Source of the DNA: a virus
Length of the DNA stretch: 23,077 nucleotides
IMG/VR virus record: IMGVR_UViG_3300032284_000480
Location: 1 to 23,077 of that record
Direction: 5' to 3' (one strand)
In this document: positions 1 to 20,952 of the stretch, piece by piece
How positions within the stretch are numbered: the stretch's first letter is position 1
Layout: each line of letters begins with the position of its first letter
The notes under the pieces: generated by a model
What the model was told of the DNA's origin: nothing
The model's input: only the letters and a program-made list of their open reading frames with translations
The model's database searches: none
Made by a program: the position numbers and the translations under genes

Positions 1-893
<893 letters not shown>

Positions 894-897
<4 letters not shown>

Positions 898-2913: not shown

Positions 2914-3504
2914 CTAGGCGGAAACGACGCCAAGCTGTGCCGAAATCCAAGTGTTCACATCAACAAAAGTGTACAGGCAACGCTTGGCATTCGTAAGGGT
3001 AACGCCAGTAGCGCCAGCAATGGTATCAACCGTTTCAGACGCGCTCGCATAAACCTTAATGGCGTTAGCGCCAGCGTTGTACACGGTTATGACCATGCCA
3101 ATGACGCCGACCGGAAGAATGACACCAGTGCCAGAAGCGGCAGTGGTCACGTTGTTGACCTCCTTCGCAAGCTGCAAGGCAGTAGCGCGGTTGGTGCCAA
3201 CGGCGGTCAGGGCGTTACCGACCGAAGACAGCGCATAGGAACTAGTGCTGTTCAGCAGCGTAACAGTGCCGGTAGCACGGTTGACCGTGATCGGGGTGTT
3301 GATGATGGTAAACCCATCGTCAGCGATGCCCTGAAGCTGGAGGTTCGAGCCAGCATTCGCGGAGGACTCATCGCCAATCAGGTTCCACTGCCAGCGCGTA
3401 TTGTACGCCACCGGGTCAGTGCTATTGGAAATGCTAAATTCAGAAGAGACGCCCAGACCATTAGTAAAATGGGTGCCGGGGGTGGGGGAAACAATAACAG
3501 CCAT
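2914..3504 (-). CDS. Probable virion surface (decoration or head-fibre-like) protein
   Basis: The protein has 196 residues and no membrane segment, and is rich in Thr, Val, Ala and Asn in alternating beta-strand style. Its C-terminal half contains VILPVGVIGMVITVYNAGAN followed by ASETVDTIAGATGVTL, a beta-domain pattern that recurs in phage surface and decoration proteins. The N-terminal half (IVSPTPGTHFTNGLG) is less familiar. A GAAGGAT ribosome binding site precedes the ATG. The gene has a leader of about 100 bases with a 12-base-pair stem, so it may be regulated separately from the gene before it. The particle position is not known. Confidence 0.6.
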   Translation of the reverse strand: MAVIVSPTPGTHFTNGLGVSSEFSISNSTDPVAYNTRWQWNLIGDESSANAGSNLQLQGIADDGFTIINTPITVNRATGTVTLLNSTSSYALSSVGNALTAVGTNRATALQLAKEVNNVTTAASGTGVILPVGVIGMVITVYNAGANAIKVYASASETVDTIAGATGVTLTNAKRCLYTFVDVNTWISAQLGVVSA

Positions 3505-3526
3505 TGACTTAATCCTTCACAGAGTA

Positions 3527-3581
3527 AGTCCGGCTGGTATGCTCTGCACATAGCCCACGGGAAAAGGCCACCAACCGGACT
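3527..3581 (-). other. Long-armed inverted repeat in an intergenic leader
   Basis: AGTCCGGCTGGT (3527-3538) and ACCAACCGGACT (3570-3581) can pair over 12 positions with one G-U pair. They enclose 31 bases and lie just upstream of the gene starting at 3504. There is no T-run after the stem, so it is not a classic terminator. It could be a processing site or an RNA stabiliser. Confidence 0.5.
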
Positions 3582-3603
3582 AGAAACCCGTCATTTTATT
3601 GGA

Positions 3604-3975
3604 TTAGTCGATGTCCAAAGTCTTGTGGCGCTTGGGGGCTGTACCCGCATGGGCCGAAGACAGCGGCGACTTATCCGAACCAGCGCGACCACCGGAATTG
3701 CGGGCCTTGCGACCAGCATGGTGCATGGCATGCATACCATGGACTTTACCAACATGCTTCCGACCATCATGGTGCATGGCATGCATACCATGGGCTTTAC
3801 CAACATGCTTCTTCTTCGCACGGCCACCCGACTTACGCTCTTCAGCTTCGTCGTTGACCTTGCTCTGATAGGTGTAGCGCATATTCTTGGACTTCAGGTC
3901 CTGCTCATACTCTTTAGTGCCAGACTTAGGGGAGTCCATTTCCCCGCCGTTAGCCTTACCTTTGCGACCTTTCAT
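3604..3975 (-). CDS. Basic G-G-motif protein with tandem His/Met repeat
   Basis: The protein has 123 residues, rich in Lys, Gly and His, with no hydrophobic core. It carries KSGGRA (48-53) and NSGGRA (93-98), the same short motif class as in the genes at 7994 and 9574. Between them lies a two-copy 17-residue repeat (57-73 and 74-90) containing HGMHAMHH, which is dense enough in His and Met to suggest metal binding. The gene lies directly downstream of the major capsid gene, separated by a terminator-like hairpin, and has a GGAGAG ribosome binding site. It does not match a family I can name. It is probably a flexible accessory protein of the particle or of assembly. Confidence 0.6.
   Translation of the reverse strand: MKGRKGKANGGEMDSPKSGTKEYEQDLKSKNMRYTYQSKVNDEAEERKSGGRAKKKHVGKAHGMHAMHHDGRKHVGKVHGMHAMHHAGRKARNSGGRAGSDKSPLSSAHAGTAPKRHKTLDID
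3706..3807 (-). repeat. 51-base coding tandem repeat (two copies)
   Basis: Copies 3706-3756 and 3757-3807 are nearly identical and in frame. Each encodes 17 residues containing the HGMHAMHH core. Differences are few and include one changing Val to Ala and one changing Ala to Asp, so the duplication looks fairly recent. Confidence 0.9.
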
Positions 3976-3986
3976 GGGTCTCTCCT

Positions 3987-4017
3987 AAAAAATGGTGCCT
4001 CCCCGGTTAAGGGGAGG
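3987..4017 (-). terminator. Terminator-like hairpin after the major capsid gene
   Basis: On the minus strand a CCTCCCC/GGGGAGG stem (4011-4017 with 3998-4004) with a short TTAACC-type loop is followed five bases later by six T (3987-3992). It begins nine bases after the capsid stop codon and ends next to the ribosome binding site of the next gene. Partial read-through would give high capsid and lower downstream expression. Confidence 0.75.
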
Positions 4018-4025
4018 TTTACCGA

Positions 4026-4940
4026 TTACGACGTTGGGAACGACCCATAGATTGAACGCCAGTTGTAGTACCCGAACGAATAACGCTCGTAACCCTTCAC
4101 AAGCAGGTTGTCAGTTACAAAATCCACCTGCATGTCGGTCTCGAACTTCACACGTTCCATGTACGACAGACCGTCGATGTTGGTCAGCAAAAACCACGCA
4201 TAAGCCGAGGTTAGGAAGTCGTTGACCATGTACGATTCAGGCAGACCACCAGCGGTCATCAAAATCGCATTCACATCATTGTCCGCAGTACCCGGACGCA
4301 GTTCCGTCTTGCACAGACGGATTGCAACCGGCTCCAACTGGGGAGGAACAACCAGCTTACGACCACGGGCGAAGACCTTCAGGCCAGCCTGATCCTTGAA
4401 GTTCGTGCGGATTGCGATCATCGCATTCAGCAGCGTAGCTTCGTTAAGATCAACCTGCACAGCGGGCTTGTTCGCCACGACGCCGCCAGTGATCGGGTGA
4501 CTCGAAGAGCAAAGAGCTACTCCGTCACCGCCAATGGAGGCATTGTAGGTAGTCGCAGTGTTCAGGAGGTTCGCGCCGTAGATTTCCTTGGTCTGCTGAA
4601 AGGATTCGATCAGGCCGAGGTTGGACGGGTGGAACTGGGTCTTATACAGGTTGTCGTCAACAGCCTTGCGAGTGATCGCGTAGCCGAGGCCGATTTCCGT
4701 ATGTTCCTGATTGTAGATAAAACGCTCACCAGCGTTATTATCGAACGCAGTCTGACCACCTTCGGTCTTCAACTGGGCTAGACCGAGGTACTGCATTTCG
4801 GCAGTACGTTCGAGGGCCATATTCGAGTTATGCTTGGTAAAGATTTTATCGTACTGAGACGGGATCATCTCATACTTGCCTTCTACGCCGCGAAGTCCGG
4901 GGAGTAGAAGGTCTTTAATCGCACTAAGATTAACAGCCAT
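4026..4940 (-). CDS. Major capsid protein (Mu gpT-like / HK97-fold family)
   Basis: This is the main shell subunit. The 304-residue length fits the Mu-like major head subunit family. Visible markers are the N-terminal MAVNLSAIKDLLLPGLRGVE, a basic middle with GYAITRKAVDDNLY, a capsid-type SSSHPITGG turn, FARGRKLVVPPQLE, and a C-terminal VKGYERYSFGYYNWRSIYGS. No N-terminal prohead protease cleavage region is obvious, which fits a separate scaffold gene (6367). An AAGGGAG ribosome binding site lies just after the upstream stop, only 13 bases away, so it is co-expressed with the decoration-type gene. A terminator-like hairpin follows. The sequence type and the position downstream of portal and scaffold make this call strong. 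Confidence 0.9.
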   Translation of the reverse strand: MAVNLSAIKDLLLPGLRGVEGKYEMIPSQYDKIFTKHNSNMALERTAEMQYLGLAQLKTEGGQTAFDNNAGERFIYNQEHTEIGLGYAITRKAVDDNLYKTQFHPSNLGLIESFQQTKEIYGANLLNTATTYNASIGGDGVALCSSSHPITGGVVANKPAVQVDLNEATLLNAMIAIRTNFKDQAGLKVFARGRKLVVPPQLEPVAIRLCKTELRPGTADNDVNAILMTAGGLPESYMVNDFLTSAYAWFLLTNIDGLSYMERVKFETDMQVDFVTDNLLVKGYERYSFGYYNWRSIYGSFPTS

Positions 4941-4953
4941 TGGTCAAACTCCC

Positions 4954-5577
4954 TTAGCTGATGCCGGTCGGACCAGCGCCATTAGTACGCATGATCTGGT
5001 TGTTGAAACCAACAACGACATTGTTGTACGCAGACGTTGGGTCCGCACCATTGGCTCCCGGCGGGAACGTAATAAGATCAACCACGATGAACGGATAGGT
5101 AACCGTGGTGCCGAGGGCATTCAGATACGCGCCCGACGCACCAGTGCTGGCATTGCCAGTACCGATAGCGAACTGAGCGTACTGACCAACGGGCGAAGTA
5201 CCATACGACGCCAGAGAGCCGCTGATGTTGAACGTCGTGCCGTTGCCCATAACAAGGAAACGAGCATTCGGATCATCAACAACATAGACGATGACATCGG
5301 TGGTCGAGTCCGAACCCGGCCAGTAACGCGACCACACGGTGCGCTTCTGGGAGGTAGACAGGTACTGGCAACCAACAAAAATGCCAGCCAGAGCCTGAAC
5401 ATTGGACGGATCAGCCACTGTGATGTAACCAGTCGCAGAGTTCTGCTGAACGGGGTCGCCACAATAAATGGCGGCAGCGTTATAGGCAGTACGGCGAGCA
5501 GACTGGGAGAAGGTCGGAGCGCCACCAGCGCCACCGTAGTATTCTAGAAAACCGAAAGGCGCGTTCGCATTCGCCAT
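4954..5577 (-). CDS. Conserved virion protein, probable capsid decoration or head protein
   Basis: The protein has 207 residues with the N-terminus MANANAPFGFLEYYGG. MA-N-A-P-x-G-F is a recurrent beginning of phage head-associated proteins encoded just before or after the capsid gene. The rest is beta-rich, with IYCGDPVQQ, VWSRYWPGSDS, VIVYVVDDPNARFLVMGN and YPFIVVDLITFPPG. I set the start at 5577 because GAGGAG lies eight bases upstream; the frame stays open further upstream but crosses a promoter and a terminator. It is the first gene after the best promoter in the structural block, so it should be highly expressed with the capsid gene. A structural role is very likely; decoration is inferred. 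Confidence 0.72.
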   Translation of the reverse strand: MANANAPFGFLEYYGGAGGAPTFSQSARRTAYNAAAIYCGDPVQQNSATGYITVADPSNVQALAGIFVGCQYLSTSQKRTVWSRYWPGSDSTTDVIVYVVDDPNARFLVMGNGTTFNISGSLASYGTSPVGQYAQFAIGTGNASTGASGAYLNALGTTVTYPFIVVDLITFPPGANGADPTSAYNNVVVGFNNQIMRTNGAGPTGIS

Positions 5578-7295: not shown

Positions 7296-7688
7296 TCACC
7301 AAATCTTGTCGGGTACGTCGATTTTGCCGCGCACGGAGGTGTCATCCAGCATCCGGCACAGGACGCCATTGACGGTAATCGCCCAGCCTTCAGAGGGCCG
7401 GAACACGATCCAGTCATCCAGTTCAATCTTCATGTCCTTGAACCACAGGCTGTCATCACCCTCGAAAGCCGCCGGACCCTTCTTCAGGACTAGGCCAACC
7501 TTTGACTGGTACTGGTCTTCAGCGCGGAGACCATCGGTCAGGTAGATGCCGCTCTTGGTCTTTTCAGGCCGGACATAGACAGCAATCAAAATCTGGTTGT
7601 TGTAGATGTCAAAACTGTCAATGTTCCCGATTTGTTCTTTTAGAACTACTTTCGGGTCTACGTCGTGTTCCATCATTCTCGGAGGCAT
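7296..7688 (-). CDS. GroES-like co-chaperonin
   Basis: The protein has 130 residues, longer than the usual 95-100. The Cpn10 layout is visible in order: ILIAVYVRPEKTKSG, then GIYL (47-50), matching the hydrophobic mobile-loop motif that contacts GroEL (GGIVL in GroES), then KVGLVLKKGP, a DDWIVFRPSEGWAI barrel strand, and a final CRMLDDTSVRGKID. Phage co-chaperonins such as T4 gp31 and RB49 CocO work with host GroEL to fold the coat protein. Its position directly before the scaffold gene fits this role. Partnership with host GroEL is inferred. The extra N-terminus (about 25 residues) is unexplained. Confidence 0.68.
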   Translation of the reverse strand: MPPRMMEHDVDPKVVLKEQIGNIDSFDIYNNQILIAVYVRPEKTKSGIYLTDGLRAEDQYQSKVGLVLKKGPAAFEGDDSLWFKDMKIELDDWIVFRPSEGWAITVNGVLCRMLDDTSVRGKIDVPDKIW

Positions 7689-9573: not shown

Positions 9574-12500
9574 TTAGTTCCGACGTTGATGTTGCCTTGC
9601 AAGAAATACGGCAGCGGGCAACGTCGCGCCGGATTTGGATGTCAGTTTAAGAGCCTGCTCGACAGCAGAACTTCTGGCAGGTGGTACGAACCCACCAGTT
9701 TTCCGAGGTAGGCCCTTGGAAATTGTCTCCCGCATTGCGGGGGTAATCTTTAGTGAAGGGACGGCCTTCAAGCCTTTGTAAAGATTAGTGCGGTGGGCGT
9801 CAGCCTCTTCACGGGTGGCGAACGGGCCAGCAACGTGTTCTCCGTCTTGCCAATTTCCTTCGTTATTATGCATGTCTGGCGTTTCGACATGATACTGGCC
9901 GCGACGATTAATAAGGACCAAATCCCTATCATCCTTCCTGCCCTGAATATAATCAGTGCCGAACTCAGGGGTATGTCCAATTGACTTCACAATCCTAGCA
10001 AGGGCAGTCGGTACGATTTTATCGTAGTAGCCCTTCATGCCTTCGCCGCCGACTTTGAGGTCAACACCGCGAAGGTCGGCACGGGGAATGTGAGAACCAG
10101 CGTTACGGCTAGATTCCATATGCTCCATGGCCTTGTCTGCCGCTTCTTTCCCAATTAAACGGGCTATCTCTTCCGGCGTATCAACATGCTCGTTGATTAC
10201 TTTGCTGCCATCATGGTCATAAGCTTTGACATGGAACTTTCCCCCGTGATTTTCCACAAGGATTTGCTTTACCTGTTGGCTTAGGTCGTACCGGTCAGCT
10301 TGATCTTGGCCCGGTGTCCAGACTAGCTTGTCATGTCCATTACGAGCAGCTTCGATCAAGGCCCGCTTTAGGCCAAGTTCGGTCCACTTAGCTGTGCTTC
10401 CAACATATGGGCCTTCAGGCGTAGTGGCCTTAGAGGCTTCATTCCACTTGTTCATAACAGCCTTAGACTTATCTTCCGCTGCCTGTATTTGGTCTTCAGT
10501 CGCACCGCTAACCGGACCAATCAAGTTTAGAAAATTCTTATGCGCGGCCAGCATGTCGGCCTTCATGGACGCCAGTTCTTCAGGGCTTTTCTTGAACCCT
10601 GCGCGGCCAGCCTGACCCCAGTCACTTTGCAACTCTTCTAGGTGCAGGGCTTTTTCGCCGGTCTGAGGCAATGTGCGGTCAGACATGCGGAGGTGGGCCA
10701 CAAGATTAGGCTTATTATACCAATGGGGTGATTTATAATCTAAGTTCCATGTTTTTGGTACCAAGTCTTTATATTCGGAACGCAGATTTTCTTGTTCTGA
10801 CAAAAGATGCATTTTTTGCATCATTATGTCGTCAACATTTGCAATTCCTTGCGTAGATATATGTTTATCAAGTTCTTCGTCATTGAGTTTCATAAGTTCT
10901 TTTTCAATGGCGTGGCGTCGCTCATCTATGGCCGACATCCTATCCCGCTCAGGCGATTTATTTAGAGGAGCCTGAAGCAGCACTTCCCGGTAATTCTCAC
11001 CGCCGGGGATGGTGTACTTATGGTATTTGGTTTCCATATTGGACTGCCTACCGCCAAGCTGGGTTTCTTCCAGCTTCGGAGCATTGGTCTGGAAGTGCTT
11101 TACCAGATCGCCTTTGGACACAATTGGCTGACCGGCAAAAGCATGATCAGCCCCCGACCACTTGATGGACTCCTGTGTGCCGGGAACCTTCTGGACCATA
11201 GACATCATCTGCTGCGGCGTACCCTTGGCTTGCGGGATGCCCTTTGCGGCCTCTGCGGCAGCGTTGTAGAAGCCGGACTGGTCTAGTTCGCGGTCGCCCT
11301 CTACAGGTCCGCCGTAGGCGTAATGGATTGGCTGCTCGCCCTTAGCCCTAGCAATCATTAATGCCTTCCGGGCGTCCTTATTTCCCTGTTCCGGGGACCG
11401 CAAAGCCGCAATTCGCTCGGAAATGACCTGCTGCGGACTTTCGATATGGACCTGACCGCCAGTAGGTAACTGGGCCGCAATAGCCGAAGCCTGTTCGTGG
11501 GCTGTCTTGTCTGTACCAGCAGCGGACAGGACTTCTCGGCCCCCTGCGTCCCTGCCAACCACGGCAAGCGGGCTTTCGCCCTGAGCTACGCGATTGAGAA
11601 CGTCCCTTTTGGAATAGGGGCCGTATCCCAGAATTTCGTTGATCCTGTCCCCGGCGACCGCAGCCTTGATGGAGCGTTCGTCGATCAGCGCGGGGTTGTA
11701 ATGAAATACTCCGTGGGCCGTCTCTAGGCGTCCCGCACCCTTGGGGAGTTCCGGCTCGTCATGGGTATACAGGACGGCCTTGCGCTTGCCCTGTAGGAAA
11801 GCCTGCAATTGGCTTTCGAGCGTATAGGGCGCTTCAGGAACGGTCTCTTCGACTGCCCCGCCTTTGGCTTTGGCATTGGTGCGCGTGATGCCGTAGGAAT
11901 TGTCTGTAGGCACCTGCACTGGCTGCGGGGTTCCGTTAATTGGCGCAGGCGTTGTAGCCCCTAAGACTGGCGGCGGCGACTGAGGTGACGGCGCTACCAT
12001 TCCCGGCACTGGCTGTACTGGCTGGGGGGTTCCATTAACTGGCGCGGGTGTTGTTGTCCCAAGAACTGGCGGCGGCGCGGGCGTAGTTGGCGTAGCTGGC
12101 GGCGGCGCGGGCGTAGTTGTCGTCGTCGAGGGCGGCGTTGTAGGCGGTGTAGCGCCATACACGGGGGAGGTTGGTGTGGTGCCTACCGTTTGATAGTTTG
12201 TGACAGGGTTCGGCGTTGACGGCGCGGCAGGCGTTGACGGCGCGGTAGGCGTTGACGGCGCAGAGTAGGTAGGCCCCACAAACCCCGGCATGTTTATCGG
12301 GTCTTGCGATACTAACTTGCCTTGGTCGTCGTAGCTGTCAGACTTTACCTGACGCCAGCCACTGCCGGGTTCGGCTGACCAGCCGCCGCTGCTGGCCGTG
12401 TACCGCTGGCCGGTCTTTTCGTTGTACCAGTTTACAAGCTCCTGAGTGGCAACGCCGTTGGCTGGGTTCAGCCCCTCCGGAGGCGTAGGGGCCACATACG

Positions 12501-13269
12501 GGTTATCCTGATCCCAAGCCGAGTTGAACTGCTCTTCCTGCTGGGCGCCGTAATCCATGCCTTGCGCCATCTTCAGCGCACTGGGATCGCCTTGCATTAG
12601 CCCAAGATTGCCAGAAGCAACCGCCCCGCCTTCAGCCTTGGTGATGTCTGGCTCGTTCAGATCGAAGGTGCCACGGTTTCCGATGGCGGATTTGAGTTGG
12701 CGTTCGGGATGTAGCGCAACCCAGACTGGACCCTGATCAGGGTGATCGACCGCACCGGGCGGGAACATGATCGAGTCATGCCCCTTGCTCATAAGGTAAT
12801 CCCGCAGCGGACCTACCGTGCCTCTACCTTTAGGGTTCTGCGCCTTTGGGTTGCGGCCAGCGGTGGTGTGCATTAGGTCTAGGAACTCATCAAAACTCTT
12901 AGGTTTCCACGGGTTTTTTAGGGATGGATTGACCGGGTAAATAGCGCCCTCGCTACCGGCATACATGCCAGCGCCGGTCTTGCCGGGATTTTCGTCAAGC
13001 CAAGTTCCTACTGCGTCCATGCCTTCGGGACGGTTGAAGGCTTTGTAAGCAGCATACCGATCGAACTGGTCTATGTCACCGAGCGGTCTGGTGTTAGTAC
13101 CCCTAGGAGCGGCATGCACGAGGGTCCCGTGGTACAGCGTAGGGGGCGCGACGCTGCCCTCCATGAACCGCGCAAGGTTAGCCGTCCGCTGCGGATCACC
13201 CGGAGGCAGATACCCACTGGATACCGGCCCCTTGGCAATCATCAAAGCTTTGCGGACATCCTTGGACAT
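9574..13269 (-). CDS. Polyvalent-type protein with ADP-ribosyltransferase-like domain (putative injected effector)
   Basis: The protein has 1231 residues in several blocks. Residues 43-210 resemble the ADP-ribosyltransferase domain of phage polyvalent proteins: TLYHGT, GTWLDENPGKTGAGMY, GAIYPVNPSLKNPW and the closing LKSAIGNRGTFDLNEPDI. A Pro/Thr/Ala-rich linker (335-455) follows, then an unassigned domain (475-625) with RKAVLYTHDEPELPKG and INEILGYGPYSKRDV. The largest block (655-1190) matches a polyvalent-associated domain with LVAHLRMSDR, LHLEELQSDWG, YVGSTAKWTELGLKRALIEA and VGGEGMKGYYDKIVP. G-G motifs mark the borders (213, 469, 652, 1191). The gene starts on the portal stop codon (TAATG), where podoviruses often encode ejected proteins. 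Injection and host modification are inferred; activity is not shown. Confidence 0.75.
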   Translation of the reverse strand: MSKDVRKALMIAKGPVSSGYLPPGDPQRTANLARFMEGSVAPPTLYHGTLVHAAPRGTNTRPLGDIDQFDRYAAYKAFNRPEGMDAVGTWLDENPGKTGAGMYAGSEGAIYPVNPSLKNPWKPKSFDEFLDLMHTTAGRNPKAQNPKGRGTVGPLRDYLMSKGHDSIMFPPGAVDHPDQGPVWVALHPERQLKSAIGNRGTFDLNEPDITKAEGGAVASGNLGLMQGDPSALKMAQGMDYGAQQEEQFNSAWDQDNPYVAPTPPEGLNPANGVATQELVNWYNEKTGQRYTASSGGWSAEPGSGWRQVKSDSYDDQGKLVSQDPINMPGFVGPTYSAPSTPTAPSTPAAPSTPNPVTNYQTVGTTPTSPVYGATPPTTPPSTTTTTPAPPPATPTTPAPPPVLGTTTPAPVNGTPQPVQPVPGMVAPSPQSPPPVLGATTPAPINGTPQPVQVPTDNSYGITRTNAKAKGGAVEETVPEAPYTLESQLQAFLQGKRKAVLYTHDEPELPKGAGRLETAHGVFHYNPALIDERSIKAAVAGDRINEILGYGPYSKRDVLNRVAQGESPLAVVGRDAGGREVLSAAGTDKTAHEQASAIAAQLPTGGQVHIESPQQVISERIAALRSPEQGNKDARKALMIARAKGEQPIHYAYGGPVEGDRELDQSGFYNAAAEAAKGIPQAKGTPQQMMSMVQKVPGTQESIKWSGADHAFAGQPIVSKGDLVKHFQTNAPKLEETQLGGRQSNMETKYHKYTIPGGENYREVLLQAPLNKSPERDRMSAIDERRHAIEKELMKLNDEELDKHISTQGIANVDDIMMQKMHLLSEQENLRSEYKDLVPKTWNLDYKSPHWYNKPNLVAHLRMSDRTLPQTGEKALHLEELQSDWGQAGRAGFKKSPEELASMKADMLAAHKNFLNLIGPVSGATEDQIQAAEDKSKAVMNKWNEASKATTPEGPYVGSTAKWTELGLKRALIEAARNGHDKLVWTPGQDQADRYDLSQQVKQILVENHGGKFHVKAYDHDGSKVINEHVDTPEEIARLIGKEAADKAMEHMESSRNAGSHIPRADLRGVDLKVGGEGMKGYYDKIVPTALARIVKSIGHTPEFGTDYIQGRKDDRDLVLINRRGQYHVETPDMHNNEGNWQDGEHVAGPFATREEADAHRTNLYKGLKAVPSLKITPAMRETISKGLPRKTGGFVPPARSSAVEQALKLTSKSGATLPAAVFLARQHQRRN
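12213..12266 (-). repeat. 18-base tandem repeat in the Pro/Thr linker
   Basis: Three head-to-tail copies of an 18-base unit (GCGTTGACGGCGCGGCAG type on the plus strand) encode six-residue APSTPx repeats. They are part of a wider low-complexity stretch (about 11900-12270) that also holds a duplicated PPPVLG...PAP.NGTPQPVQ block. The linker probably changes length easily by slippage. Confidence 0.85.
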
Positions 13270-17397: not shown

Positions 17398-18012
17398 TCA
17401 TTCTTTGCTCTTCATTTCCAGCAAAGCAGCCTTCAAAGCCGCGCGGGACTCCGGGGACAGGCTGGCAACATCCAGCGCAACGGTCTCGACCTTGATCGCA
17501 GAGCCATCGACCCCGCTCACCTCAGTCTGGACCTTATCGCCAAACCGCTTCGGGGACATCTTGCTCGCAAACCAGCGGCGGGCGTCCACCCGGTTCTTCT
17601 GCCATGAGACGTAGGCAGAGTGCAGGCGCATGTCGATGATCTCGCCATCCTTGTCCCTGACAGGCTCTGTCTCAGGGGTTTGATCAGCGATTTCCAAGGC
17701 TTCTTCAGCCAGATGATTGCCCCGATCTACGCAAGCCCTATCATATTGCTGGCAAAATTCCTTATTTTCCCTAGTCCAACGGATGATAGTCGTGATGTCC
17801 GGCATGTCATCCGCGAGGCAAACCTTTCTCAGGCTGTTCCCCAGAGCGATTCGAGTACAGATCATATCGGCCAGATTACCTGTGTATTTGCTGGGCCTTC
17901 CCACACTTCTGGGAGCCTCAGCTATTTCAGGACTATCTGTCACCAATTCACCATCCTGCACAAACAAACCCCGTGCTTTGTCAGTGATTGTATCTTTTTT
18001 CTTCCTAGGCAT
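17398..18012 (-). CDS. terS: Terminase small subunit
   Basis: The protein has 204 residues and is the DNA-recognition partner of the large terminase. The N-terminus is basic (MPRKKKDTITDKARG). The core SVGRPSKYTGNLADMICTRI, followed by GNSLRKVCLADDMPDITTII, is the usual helix-turn-helix of this family, and RWTRENKEFCQQYDRA follows. The middle has a helical oligomerisation-type segment (HLAEEALEIADQTPE) and SWQKNRVDARRWFASKMSPK, typical of small terminases. The start overlaps the upstream helix-turn-helix gene by eight bases, with AAAGGTG as ribosome binding site. The gene order with terL 136 bases downstream strengthens the call. Confidence 0.9.
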   Translation of the reverse strand: MPRKKKDTITDKARGLFVQDGELVTDSPEIAEAPRSVGRPSKYTGNLADMICTRIALGNSLRKVCLADDMPDITTIIRWTRENKEFCQQYDRACVDRGNHLAEEALEIADQTPETEPVRDKDGEIIDMRLHSAYVSWQKNRVDARRWFASKMSPKRFGDKVQTEVSGVDGSAIKVETVALDVASLSPESRAALKAALLEMKSKE

Positions 18013-18253
18013 TCTTGTTCACCTTTGTTCCCTTACTCTTATACACGGGACGGAACTTCTCGGACATAGTGATCAGGACTGGGTTCTCTATGAACAGGTT
18101 CAGGAGGATCGCCACAGGCTCAGGGATGGCTCTCTCCCCTGCCTCCCACTTACGGATGGTTCTGTCCCACCTGAGACCTATGATTTGCGCGAGTTCAGCC
18201 GTTTTCAAATTGCCAAGTTTGGCGCGGGCGGATTTTAGCTGTTCGGGTGTCAA
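18005..18253 (-). CDS. Small XRE-like helix-turn-helix regulator
   Basis: The protein has 82 residues. LTPEQLKSARAKLGN, then TAELAQIIGL and DRTIRKWEAGERAIPEPVAI, is a clear Cro/CI-type helix-turn-helix with the scaffold seen in phage regulators. I chose the TTG start at 18253: it overlaps the upstream stop (TTGA) and has ACAGGG upstream, continuing the overlap pattern of the whole run. A longer reading from another TTG at 18322 would add 23 residues across the upstream gene. It could act on the divergent region at 19032-19197, but this is an inference. Its last codons overlap the small terminase start. Confidence 0.75.
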   Translation of the reverse strand: MTPEQLKSARAKLGNLKTAELAQIIGLRWDRTIRKWEAGERAIPEPVAILLNLFIENPVLITMSEKFRPVYKSKGTKVNKNA

Positions 18254-18435
18254 TGTGCTGGCCCTGTCAGGTAACTCTGCCGGATGTCTTCGGGGACGAC
18301 CAGATCGAGAGGGTATCTCCAACCCAGTTTATTCCCGGCATTTGCCTCAGATATGGCTTGAGCCATCTTGTCCCGTTCGGCGTCGAATCTTTCCAAATCG
18401 TCTAATATGTCCTGTAGTTCCTTGGGGATGTTCAC
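18250..18435 (-). CDS. Small unknown protein in overlapping gene chain
   Basis: The protein has 61 residues, mostly helical and acidic at the start (NIPKELQDILDDLERFDAER), with a hydrophobic YPLDLVVPEDIRQ near the end. It starts with GTG, overlaps the upstream stop as GTGA, and has AAAGGTG seven bases upstream. Its stop overlaps the start of the helix-turn-helix gene. I do not recognise the family. The regular overlaps on both sides are the main evidence that it is real. Confidence 0.6.
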   Translation of the reverse strand: MNIPKELQDILDDLERFDAERDKMAQAISEANAGNKLGWRYPLDLVVPEDIRQSYLTGPAH

Positions 18436-18614
18436 TTCAGCACCTTTAGACGGCGCGGGGTCGCTTCCTGCTCAGAGGCAGGCTTGTAGGGCCAACCCTT
18501 GCTCGACGGCTTAGGCGGCACTGGCTCCCGCATCTTCCATACTCTGTCGATGTACGCATCCAGACCGTCTGCGGCCAGAGTTTTTAAGAACTCTCTTGCG
18601 TCCTCGATCATCAT
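18432..18614 (-). CDS. Small unknown protein in overlapping gene chain
   Basis: The protein has 60 residues: a helical N-terminal half (EDAREFLKTLAADGLDAYID) and a Pro/Lys-rich C-terminal half (MREPVPPKPSSKGWPYKP). I preferred the ATG at 18614 because it overlaps the stop of the membrane peptide upstream (ATGA), as everywhere else in this run. An earlier ATG at 18659 would add 15 residues and is possible. The function is unknown. Confidence 0.58.
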   Translation of the reverse strand: MMIEDAREFLKTLAADGLDAYIDRVWKMREPVPPKPSSKGWPYKPASEQEATPRRLKVLK

Positions 18615-18721
18615 GTCCGCCCCCGAAGGTACGAGGTGATCATATGCCCGATTACCCATAATTCGTACCCCACTATCACCATAAGCAGCACATAGAATAC
18701 CGAACCAATGACGCGCCTCAC
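18611..18721 (-). CDS. 36-residue single-span membrane peptide
   Basis: A GTG start at 18721 overlaps the upstream stop (GTGA) and the stop overlaps the next ATG (ATGA). The product is MRRVIGSVFYVLLMVIVGYE and then 16 more residues ending YLRGRT. One hydrophobic segment (about 4-27) is flanked by Arg at both ends. The ribosome binding site is weak, so translation probably depends on coupling. It could be a holin, antiholin or membrane-anchored accessory peptide; nothing proves this. It lies below the usual length limits of gene callers. Confidence 0.5.
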   Translation of the reverse strand: MRRVIGSVFYVLLMVIVGYELWVIGHMITSYLRGRT

Positions 18722-18885
18722 GGCATCACCCAGTATAGCGCTTGGGCCAGAAACATCATCCCAGTGAGTAGCGCAGCCAGCAGTACGCCCCCGACCAGCA
18801 TACTGATCAGGCCAAATACGCGCGGAAATTTTTCCTCCGGCGGGATGTATACCTGCTTCGGCCTAATTCCGTAGTTCCGGCTCAT
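18718..18885 (-). CDS. 55-residue single-span membrane protein
   Basis: An ATG at 18885 has a strong AGGGGG site five bases upstream and overlaps the upstream stop (ATGA). The N-terminal 23 residues are polar (MSRNYGIRPKQVYIPPEEKF). A long hydrophobic segment follows (about 24-53, with LVGGVLLAALLTGMMFLAQA) up to the end. One span and small size fit a small holin-like or superinfection-exclusion protein. No family is recognised, and no endolysin lies next to it. Confidence 0.65.
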   Translation of the reverse strand: MSRNYGIRPKQVYIPPEEKFPRVFGLISMLVGGVLLAALLTGMMFLAQALYWVMP

Positions 18886-19031
18886 TTGCGCCCCCTACAC
18901 ATGTAACAATCCCAGCAGTCCCACCAGCGGGACCCGGACCAGCGGGCCGTTGACCCATGCGGGAGGCCCACTCCGCACCTGCAATTCGTAGCACCCGGCA
19001 GCGACCGGAGGCGTATCTTATTGAAATCCAT
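18882..19031 (-). CDS. 49-residue Cys-rich mini-protein (possible zinc finger)
   Basis: The protein starts MDFNKIRLRSLPG. It has CRC (C17, C19) and then CWDCYMC (C39, C42, C45) near the basic end, a spacing that could hold one zinc ion. Four Trp and many Arg make it strongly basic and aromatic. GGAG lies seven bases before the ATG. It is the first gene of the minus-strand chain after the divergent control region, and its stop overlaps the next start (ATGA). No known family is recognised. Confidence 0.58.
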   Translation of the reverse strand: MDFNKIRLRSLPGATNCRCGVGLPHGSTARWSGSRWWDCWDCYMCRGRK

Positions 19032-19077
19032 CATCTATCTCCACTTGAGGCGGCACAAAGCCGCCAATCGACCCCCT

Positions 19078-19106
19078 TTAATGGGCCATATGGGCCGGTA
19101 ATGCAA
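19078..19106 (-). promoter_or_regulatory. Candidate promoter of the minus-strand gene chain
   Basis: On the minus strand TTGCAT (19101-19106) and CATTAA (19078-19083) are 17 bases apart. Two direct GGCCCA half-sites (complements of 19082-19087 and 19091-19096) lie between or over them. A GGCGGC/GCCGCC stem (19049-19065) is in the leader. The -10 is weak, so confidence is modest. Confidence 0.4.
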
Positions 19107-19139: not shown

Positions 19140-19167
19140 TTTACATGTGGCCCAATGGGCCTATGGT
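19140..19167 (+). promoter_or_regulatory. Promoter with built-in inverted-repeat operator
   Basis: TTTACA (19140-19145) and TATGGT (19162-19167) are 16 bases apart. GGCCCAATGGGCC (19149-19161), an inverted repeat with six-base arms, fills the spacer and ends right before the -10. The same arrangement recurs at 20147-20176. A factor bound here would block RNA polymerase. Confidence 0.6.
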
Positions 19168-20146: not shown

Positions 20147-20176
20147 TTGACACCCACGGCCCAATGGGCCTAGTGT
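20147..20176 (+). promoter_or_regulatory. Promoter with the second copy of the inverted-repeat operator
   Basis: A perfect TTGACA (20147-20152) and TAGTGT (20171-20176) are 18 bases apart. GGCCCAATGGGCC (20158-20170) fills the spacer and touches the -10, just as at 19140-19167. It drives the four genes from 20228. Confidence 0.65.
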
Positions 20177-20548: not shown

Positions 20549-20761
20549 ATGGAATACGATAAGCGCCACGGCGGACCCTTTGATCGCGGATCGGCTGACA
20601 ACTGGTACGGTCGCCCCTTCGCCCCCCACTACTGGACCGGCGGCACAGGCAAGGGCCTGTACATTGGCAAAGACGGCATGACCGAAGACGAGATCGCCGC
20701 TTACGCCGCTGGCTGGGCCGACAATGAAACATCCGGCGGAAAGAAGGAGTACGCAGAATGA
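20549..20761 (+). CDS. Conserved small protein (YDKRHGGPFDRGSAD type)
   Basis: The protein has 70 residues. The N-terminus MEYDKRHGGPFDRGSADNWY and the C-terminal MTEDEIAAYAAGWADNE match a small family that is frequent in phages of proteobacteria. Its function is unknown, though the pattern is recognisable. GGAG lies ten bases before the ATG. Its stop overlaps the ATG of the next gene (ATGA), so both are translated together. Confidence 0.78.
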   Translation: MEYDKRHGGPFDRGSADNWYGRPFAPHYWTGGTGKGLYIGKDGMTEDEIAAYAAGWADNETSGGKKEYAE

Positions 20762-20952
20762 CTTTCCATGTCTGCCCTGTCTGCGGCAGCGAACCTATGA
20801 TCAACCCCTCGTTCTGCGGCGGGTTTGTTATCTGGTGCGATAACGATGACTGCACCGGCTCCGATATACAGGCTTGGGATCAGAACCCGTCCTATGCGGC
20901 GGAGAAATGGGAACAGCGTTGCTCTTTAGGATTTGAGGCCCCGGATGCGTGA
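20758..20952 (+). CDS. Lar-like zinc-ribbon protein (possible restriction alleviation)
   Basis: The protein has 64 residues. CPVCG (C6, C9) and CDNDDC (C27, C32) form a zinc ribbon, followed by AAEKWEQR, the W-x-x-R ending seen in Lar-family and related small phage proteins. Rac prophage Lar weakens type I restriction of incoming DNA by acting on the host system. Assignment is by pattern only, and many ribbons of this shape have no tested function. It overlaps its neighbours on both sides. Confidence 0.6.
   Translation: MTFHVCPVCGSEPMINPSFCGGFVIWCDNDDCTGSDIQAWDQNPSYAAEKWEQRCSLGFEAPDA

Follow-up and report, generated by a model that had tools for sequence, protein, structure and literature searches.

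We find that six overlapping micro-genes in a virus record form a chain that is best explained as an autorepressed accessory operon, similar to acr-aca operons, which continues into the terminase; we place the probability of this reading at roughly 60%. The window (the whole stretch of 23,077 nucleotides that was analyzed) is a 23-kb virus record that encodes an Sf6-like small terminase, a large terminase, an SU10-type portal, and a primase/helicase. In the proposed mechanism, the accessory micro-genes of the chain would form one translationally coupled operon with control over its own dose. Transcription would begin just upstream of the first gene (O1), and the small proteins O1 to O5 would be made first. 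O6, made last, would recognize GGNCCA half-sites in the spacer that separates the −35 and −10 boxes, and would thereby close its own promoter together with the facing plus-strand early promoters. Three points of this mechanism are inferred: the identity of O6 as the operator-binding protein, the repressive effect of its binding, and read-through from the operon into the terminase.

The chain lies on the minus strand, from 19034 down to 18005. Our reading of the sequence recovers six frames coupled by five 4-nt stop/start overlaps (ATGA, GTGA, ATGA, GTGA, and TTGA, in order), as the initial annotation had proposed. O1 (18882..19034, minus strand) encodes a Cys-rich protein with five cysteines, which has 50 amino acids if it starts at 19034 and 49 if it starts at 19031. 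O2 (18718..18885, minus strand; 55 aa) has a single hydrophobic span at its C-terminal end, and O3 (18611..18721, minus strand; 36 aa, GTG start) also has a single hydrophobic span. O4 (18432..18614, minus strand; 60 aa) and O5 (18250..18435, minus strand; 61 aa, GTG start) are soluble-looking orphans; the start of O4 is uncertain, with 18659 a possible alternative to 18614. O6 (18005..18253, minus strand; 82 aa, TTG start) is an HTH protein and the proposed autorepressor. Its 3′ end overlaps the terminase small subunit (17398..18012, minus strand; Sf6_terminase, 8e-33; phrog_1482, 2e-41), which starts at 18012, by 8 nt. This suggests that the chain continues into the packaging genes. Its six members of at least 36 codons make it the longest NTGA-linked chain of the window. 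No six-member chain arose in 400 minus-strand simulations (200 Markov-1 and 200 Markov-3; longest chain, five members), a test that is generous, since the 36-codon threshold was chosen after the chain had been seen.

Comparison with relatives confirms that all six frames are real genes under purifying selection. According to the initial annotation, stop codons within these frames in relatives, or an absence of codon-level conservation, would speak against the chain. We find the opposite. Each of the five overlaps recurs exactly in six relatives (L059, L060, L061, L062, L063, and L067), among which L061 and L062 are near-identical. Pooled pN/pS across the chain frames is 0.26–0.45. When the substitutions observed in three independent pairs are redistributed at random, amino-acid changes prove to be below the neutral level in all six frames (P = 0.002 for O2 and P < 0.0005 for the other five), and a stop codon would have arisen in 54–96% of the neutral substitution sets. 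The three genes described as easily missed are also upheld, one being Cys-rich (O1) and two hydrophobic with a single span (O2 and O3). Overlap and codon evidence together can therefore confirm six genes, three of them shorter than 60 residues.

In a divergent cousin, L091, the gene order is kept: O1 and O2 come first, an extra gene and a hydrophobic peptide follow, and O4 and an HTH gene complete the chain, with O5 missing. Identity is highest for O1 (52%), followed by O2 (47%), O4 (about 40%), the HTH protein (31%), and the hydrophobic peptide (only 20%). The L091 junctions are 4-nt overlaps at three of five positions and 11–14 nt at the other two. The O1 cysteines are constant between the window and L091, as a CxC pair and a CxxC pair; this assignment is a manual reading of the alignment, and the automatic alignment puts the last cysteine in the wrong place. 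Another contig, L064 (IMGVR_UViG_3300032562_000205, 3250–5249), carries a tandem of two cassette versions, as do L065 and L066. The first part of this tandem comprises O1, O2, an extra gene, a hydrophobic peptide, an O4-like gene, and a second HTH gene. Next come a fragment that resembles the terminase small subunit and one that resembles the large terminase, fused to the end of O4, followed by O5, O6, and the terminase. The tandem looks like a remnant of recombination or duplication; an assembly error could also account for it, though it is common to three records. In the small terminase (17398–18012), the ends are conserved relative to L060, L061, and L067, while the central part is unrelated in some of them, as if exchanged.

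O1 has no family match in Pfam, PHROG, or NCBIfam, and O2 and O3 have no convincing match in these collections, holin families included. Nor was a family match found for O4 or O5, and O2 and O4 have no close relatives in the phage database. A zinc fold was considered for O1 and set aside, the AF2 model being too poor for use and the PDB giving no match. An Rfam search of the window returned nothing.

A membrane role is possible for O2 and O3, with no pointer to lysis specifically. They had initially been suggested to form a holin/antiholin pair or a membrane defense or exclusion module. Our searches do not bear out the holin/antiholin pair: there is no family match, and there is no recognizable lysis cassette nearby. 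The chain could still be read as such a cassette, with O2 and O3 as the holin and antiholin that open a late operon and the endolysin encoded elsewhere. Two small hydrophobic peptides upstream of the terminase do occupy the slot of lysis genes in lambda-like phages, between the replication and terminase genes, and hydrophobic proteins also lie upstream of the HTH–terminase pairs in L091, L115, and L128. However, O2 and O3 match no holin family and are located within an operon that, unlike the lambda-like cassette, has an HTH gene after them. Furthermore, no endolysin or spanin is recognized in the window, a record from which the genome ends are absent, or among the listed neighboring genes of relatives, whose flanking replication genes were scanned in part. 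We therefore consider a lysis cassette improbable. The sole “endolysin” label in the window is a partial PHROG match inside a 1231-aa virion-type protein (9574–13269, minus strand), which also has a weak ADP-ribosyltransferase (ART-PolyVal) match.

O6 is clearly a small HTH protein of the HigA2/MqsA/Aca2–Aca3 fold class, while its assignment to any named Aca family is not clear. It matches PHROG transcriptional-regulator families, and a profile search with it against solved structures ranks Aca3 and Aca2 at the top. The profile match to Aca3 (E = 2e-6) covers only 38 HTH residues, and the single-sequence search is weak (E = 0.036). The AF2 model (pLDDT 83) is closest to HigA2, then Aca2, MqsA, Aca1, and Aca10, with no match below E = 0.001. 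Against Pfam HTH_3, O6 reaches only E = 0.015; the AcaFinder cut-off of 1e-3 would overlook it. The initial annotation thus described the gene chain correctly and missed its organizer, namely the HTH regulator encoded by the last gene and the family operator in the presumed chain promoter.

The nearest solved folds to O6 are the HigA2 and MqsA antitoxins, and O6 is also similar to the NCBIfam MqsA family. This could indicate a toxin–antitoxin operon, with O6 as an antitoxin of the HigA/MqsA type and the toxin encoded by one of the small genes before it. In HigBA2 and MqsRA operons, with which O6 shares an HTH fold, autorepression by the product of the second gene is usual. However, the NCBIfam scores are far under the curated cut-offs. 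No toxin family is found in O1 to O5, beside O6, or in the 56 cargo proteins of related cassettes, and this cargo is much too varied for a single cognate partner. A toxin–antitoxin operon is thus very unlikely.

Autorepression by O6 would operate through a variant operator (GGCCCA-TA-TGGCCC; 19083..19096, minus strand) in the presumed chain promoter, a site that is kept in relatives. This promoter, read by eye, comprises TTGCAT (19101–19106), four nucleotides, the operator, and ATTAAA (19077–19082), and its boxes are weak. A divergent promoter (TTTACA-16-TATGGT; 19140..19167, plus strand) has the operator GGCCCAATGGGCC in its spacer at 19149–19161. A second promoter (TTGACA-18-TAGTGT; 20147..20176, plus strand) has GGCCCAATGGGCC in its spacer at 20158–20170. 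Both GGCCCAATGGGCC sites are perfect palindromes, whereas the site in the chain promoter departs from them in having a 2-bp rather than a 1-bp center. Related contigs that bear O6 and are long enough also have palindromes in promoter spacers. L091 has an HTH gene without GGNCCANTGGNCC; its promoter, again read by eye, is TTGTCA-gggg-GGCCGGAATTGGGCC-TAATCT, which is alike in layout. A hairpin-like GGCGGC...GCCGCC, also identified by eye, falls within what is presumably the O1 5′ leader (19049..19065, minus strand) and is kept by relatives, in some with G-U pairs.

The palindrome and the O6-type HTH family co-occur across many viruses. Upstream of HTH homologues chosen by protein similarity alone, there are nine GGNCCANTGGNCC sites in 22.4 kb, compared with none in the other 221.7 kb (P = 5e-10). 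A reciprocal scan of viral contigs used the promoter–palindrome DNA pattern alone and counted those sites that are followed by 1.2 kb or more of sequence. Among the matches listed, 50 of 60 sites have a same-strand HTH gene of the O6 family within 2.5 kb downstream (48 of these within 1 kb), a fraction that overstates the number of independent cases, since the HTH profile was built from partly overlapping loci and some matches are near-duplicates. The HTH background is 69 matches in 1.4 million strand-bases, and 50 of 60 is far above it. The promoter–palindrome pattern occurs in none of 385 bacterial genomes from the class of Microvirga genome G020, and the HTH homologues found in bacterial genomes are confined to two weak loci, both without the operator. 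A literature search for the palindrome returned nothing relevant.

At least 57 cassettes have an HTH gene within 1 kb of the operator, mostly with orphan cargo. There are mostly one or two small ORFs between the operator and the HTH gene (none in four of the 57 cassettes listed), and some of these ORFs are possibly spurious. Only one of 56 cargo proteins matched Pfam at E < 0.001 (LPD29), and a Pfam search with the cargo of the HTH loci gave no usable match. The cassettes have almost no close counterparts in annotated phages. A relative of the window's large terminase is detectable at 5 of 80 operator loci, among the matches listed. This indicates that the terminase junction is a trait of this lineage, not of the cassette. 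It is a real possibility, if short of even odds, that the GGNCCANTGGNCC promoter and the mini-HTH gene constitute a widespread virus-borne regulatory cassette with interchangeable orphan genes, of which we found no description in the literature searched. The cargo, including O1 to O5, would then represent a large untapped set of anti-defense or host-takeover genes, and the cassette would have been spliced onto the packaging operon in this phage lineage. The promoter–operator provides a DNA tag for HTH-ended micro-operons that is independent of cargo similarity and, if the cargo is anti-defense, a searchable source of new inhibitors.

The terminase junction could alternatively mean that O6 serves specifically to regulate late or packaging genes, with O1 to O5 being phage-physiology genes that share the transcript and have no link to anti-defense. 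HTH homologues do adjoin the terminase in L106, L115, and L128, directly upstream of its small subunit, in the absence of O1 to O5 or other cargo and of the palindrome, and the 8-nt overlap of O6 with the terminase fits the same explanation. However, most operator–HTH cassettes are not near a relative of the window's terminase, as the 5 of 80 loci show, and the operator is also present within plus-strand early promoters. We regard a dedicated late regulator as unlikely. An autorepressed operon that feeds the terminase would itself require either another promoter, active late, or a way to lift the repression.

The autorepressed operon that we favor shares several features with acr-aca operons of the Aca2 and Aca3 types. 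Aca proteins act as repressors that bind inverted repeats within the core promoter (PMC9410906, PMC8434428), and AcaFinder describes a short-gene operon as closely spaced genes on one strand, each shorter than 200 aa (PMC9765179). Similarly, O1 to O6 are same-strand genes of 36–82 aa with 4-nt overlaps, and the last of them encodes an HTH protein of related fold that, at 82 aa, is below 150 aa. An inverted repeat also lies inside the core promoter, in the chain's own case as the 2-bp-center variant between weak boxes. The differences are the operator sequence, the continuation of the operon into the terminase, the two membrane-peptide cargo proteins, and the lack of a known Acr. Searches of the NCBIfam and Pfam Acr families found no known Acr among O1 to O5 or the 56 cargo proteins. 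A defining feature of acr-aca systems is that the operon encodes at least one Acr or a homologue of one; since this was sought and not found, we describe the chain as working like acr-aca and do not class it as an acr-aca system. The 2-bp operator center, the weak promoter boxes, the L091 HTH gene without GGNCCANTGGNCC, and the bare HTH loci of L106, L115, and L128 also count against the reading that we favor. Furthermore, membrane peptides would be unusual anti-CRISPRs.

O1 to O5 are most likely host-takeover or anti-defense proteins, two of them at the membrane, with the anti-defense role put forward purely as a hypothesis. In the plus-strand group that faces the chain, 20758–20952 encodes a 64-aa protein that is weakly Lar-like (restriction alleviation; E = 1.3e-4, under the Pfam cut-off). 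On this faint similarity, the protein might suit an anti-defense region. Elsewhere in the window, a collagen-like tail fiber (1–897, minus strand) is cut off at the window end, and a 130-aa protein encoded among the structural genes (7296–7688, minus strand) matches the GroES co-chaperonin PHROG (E = 8e-9).
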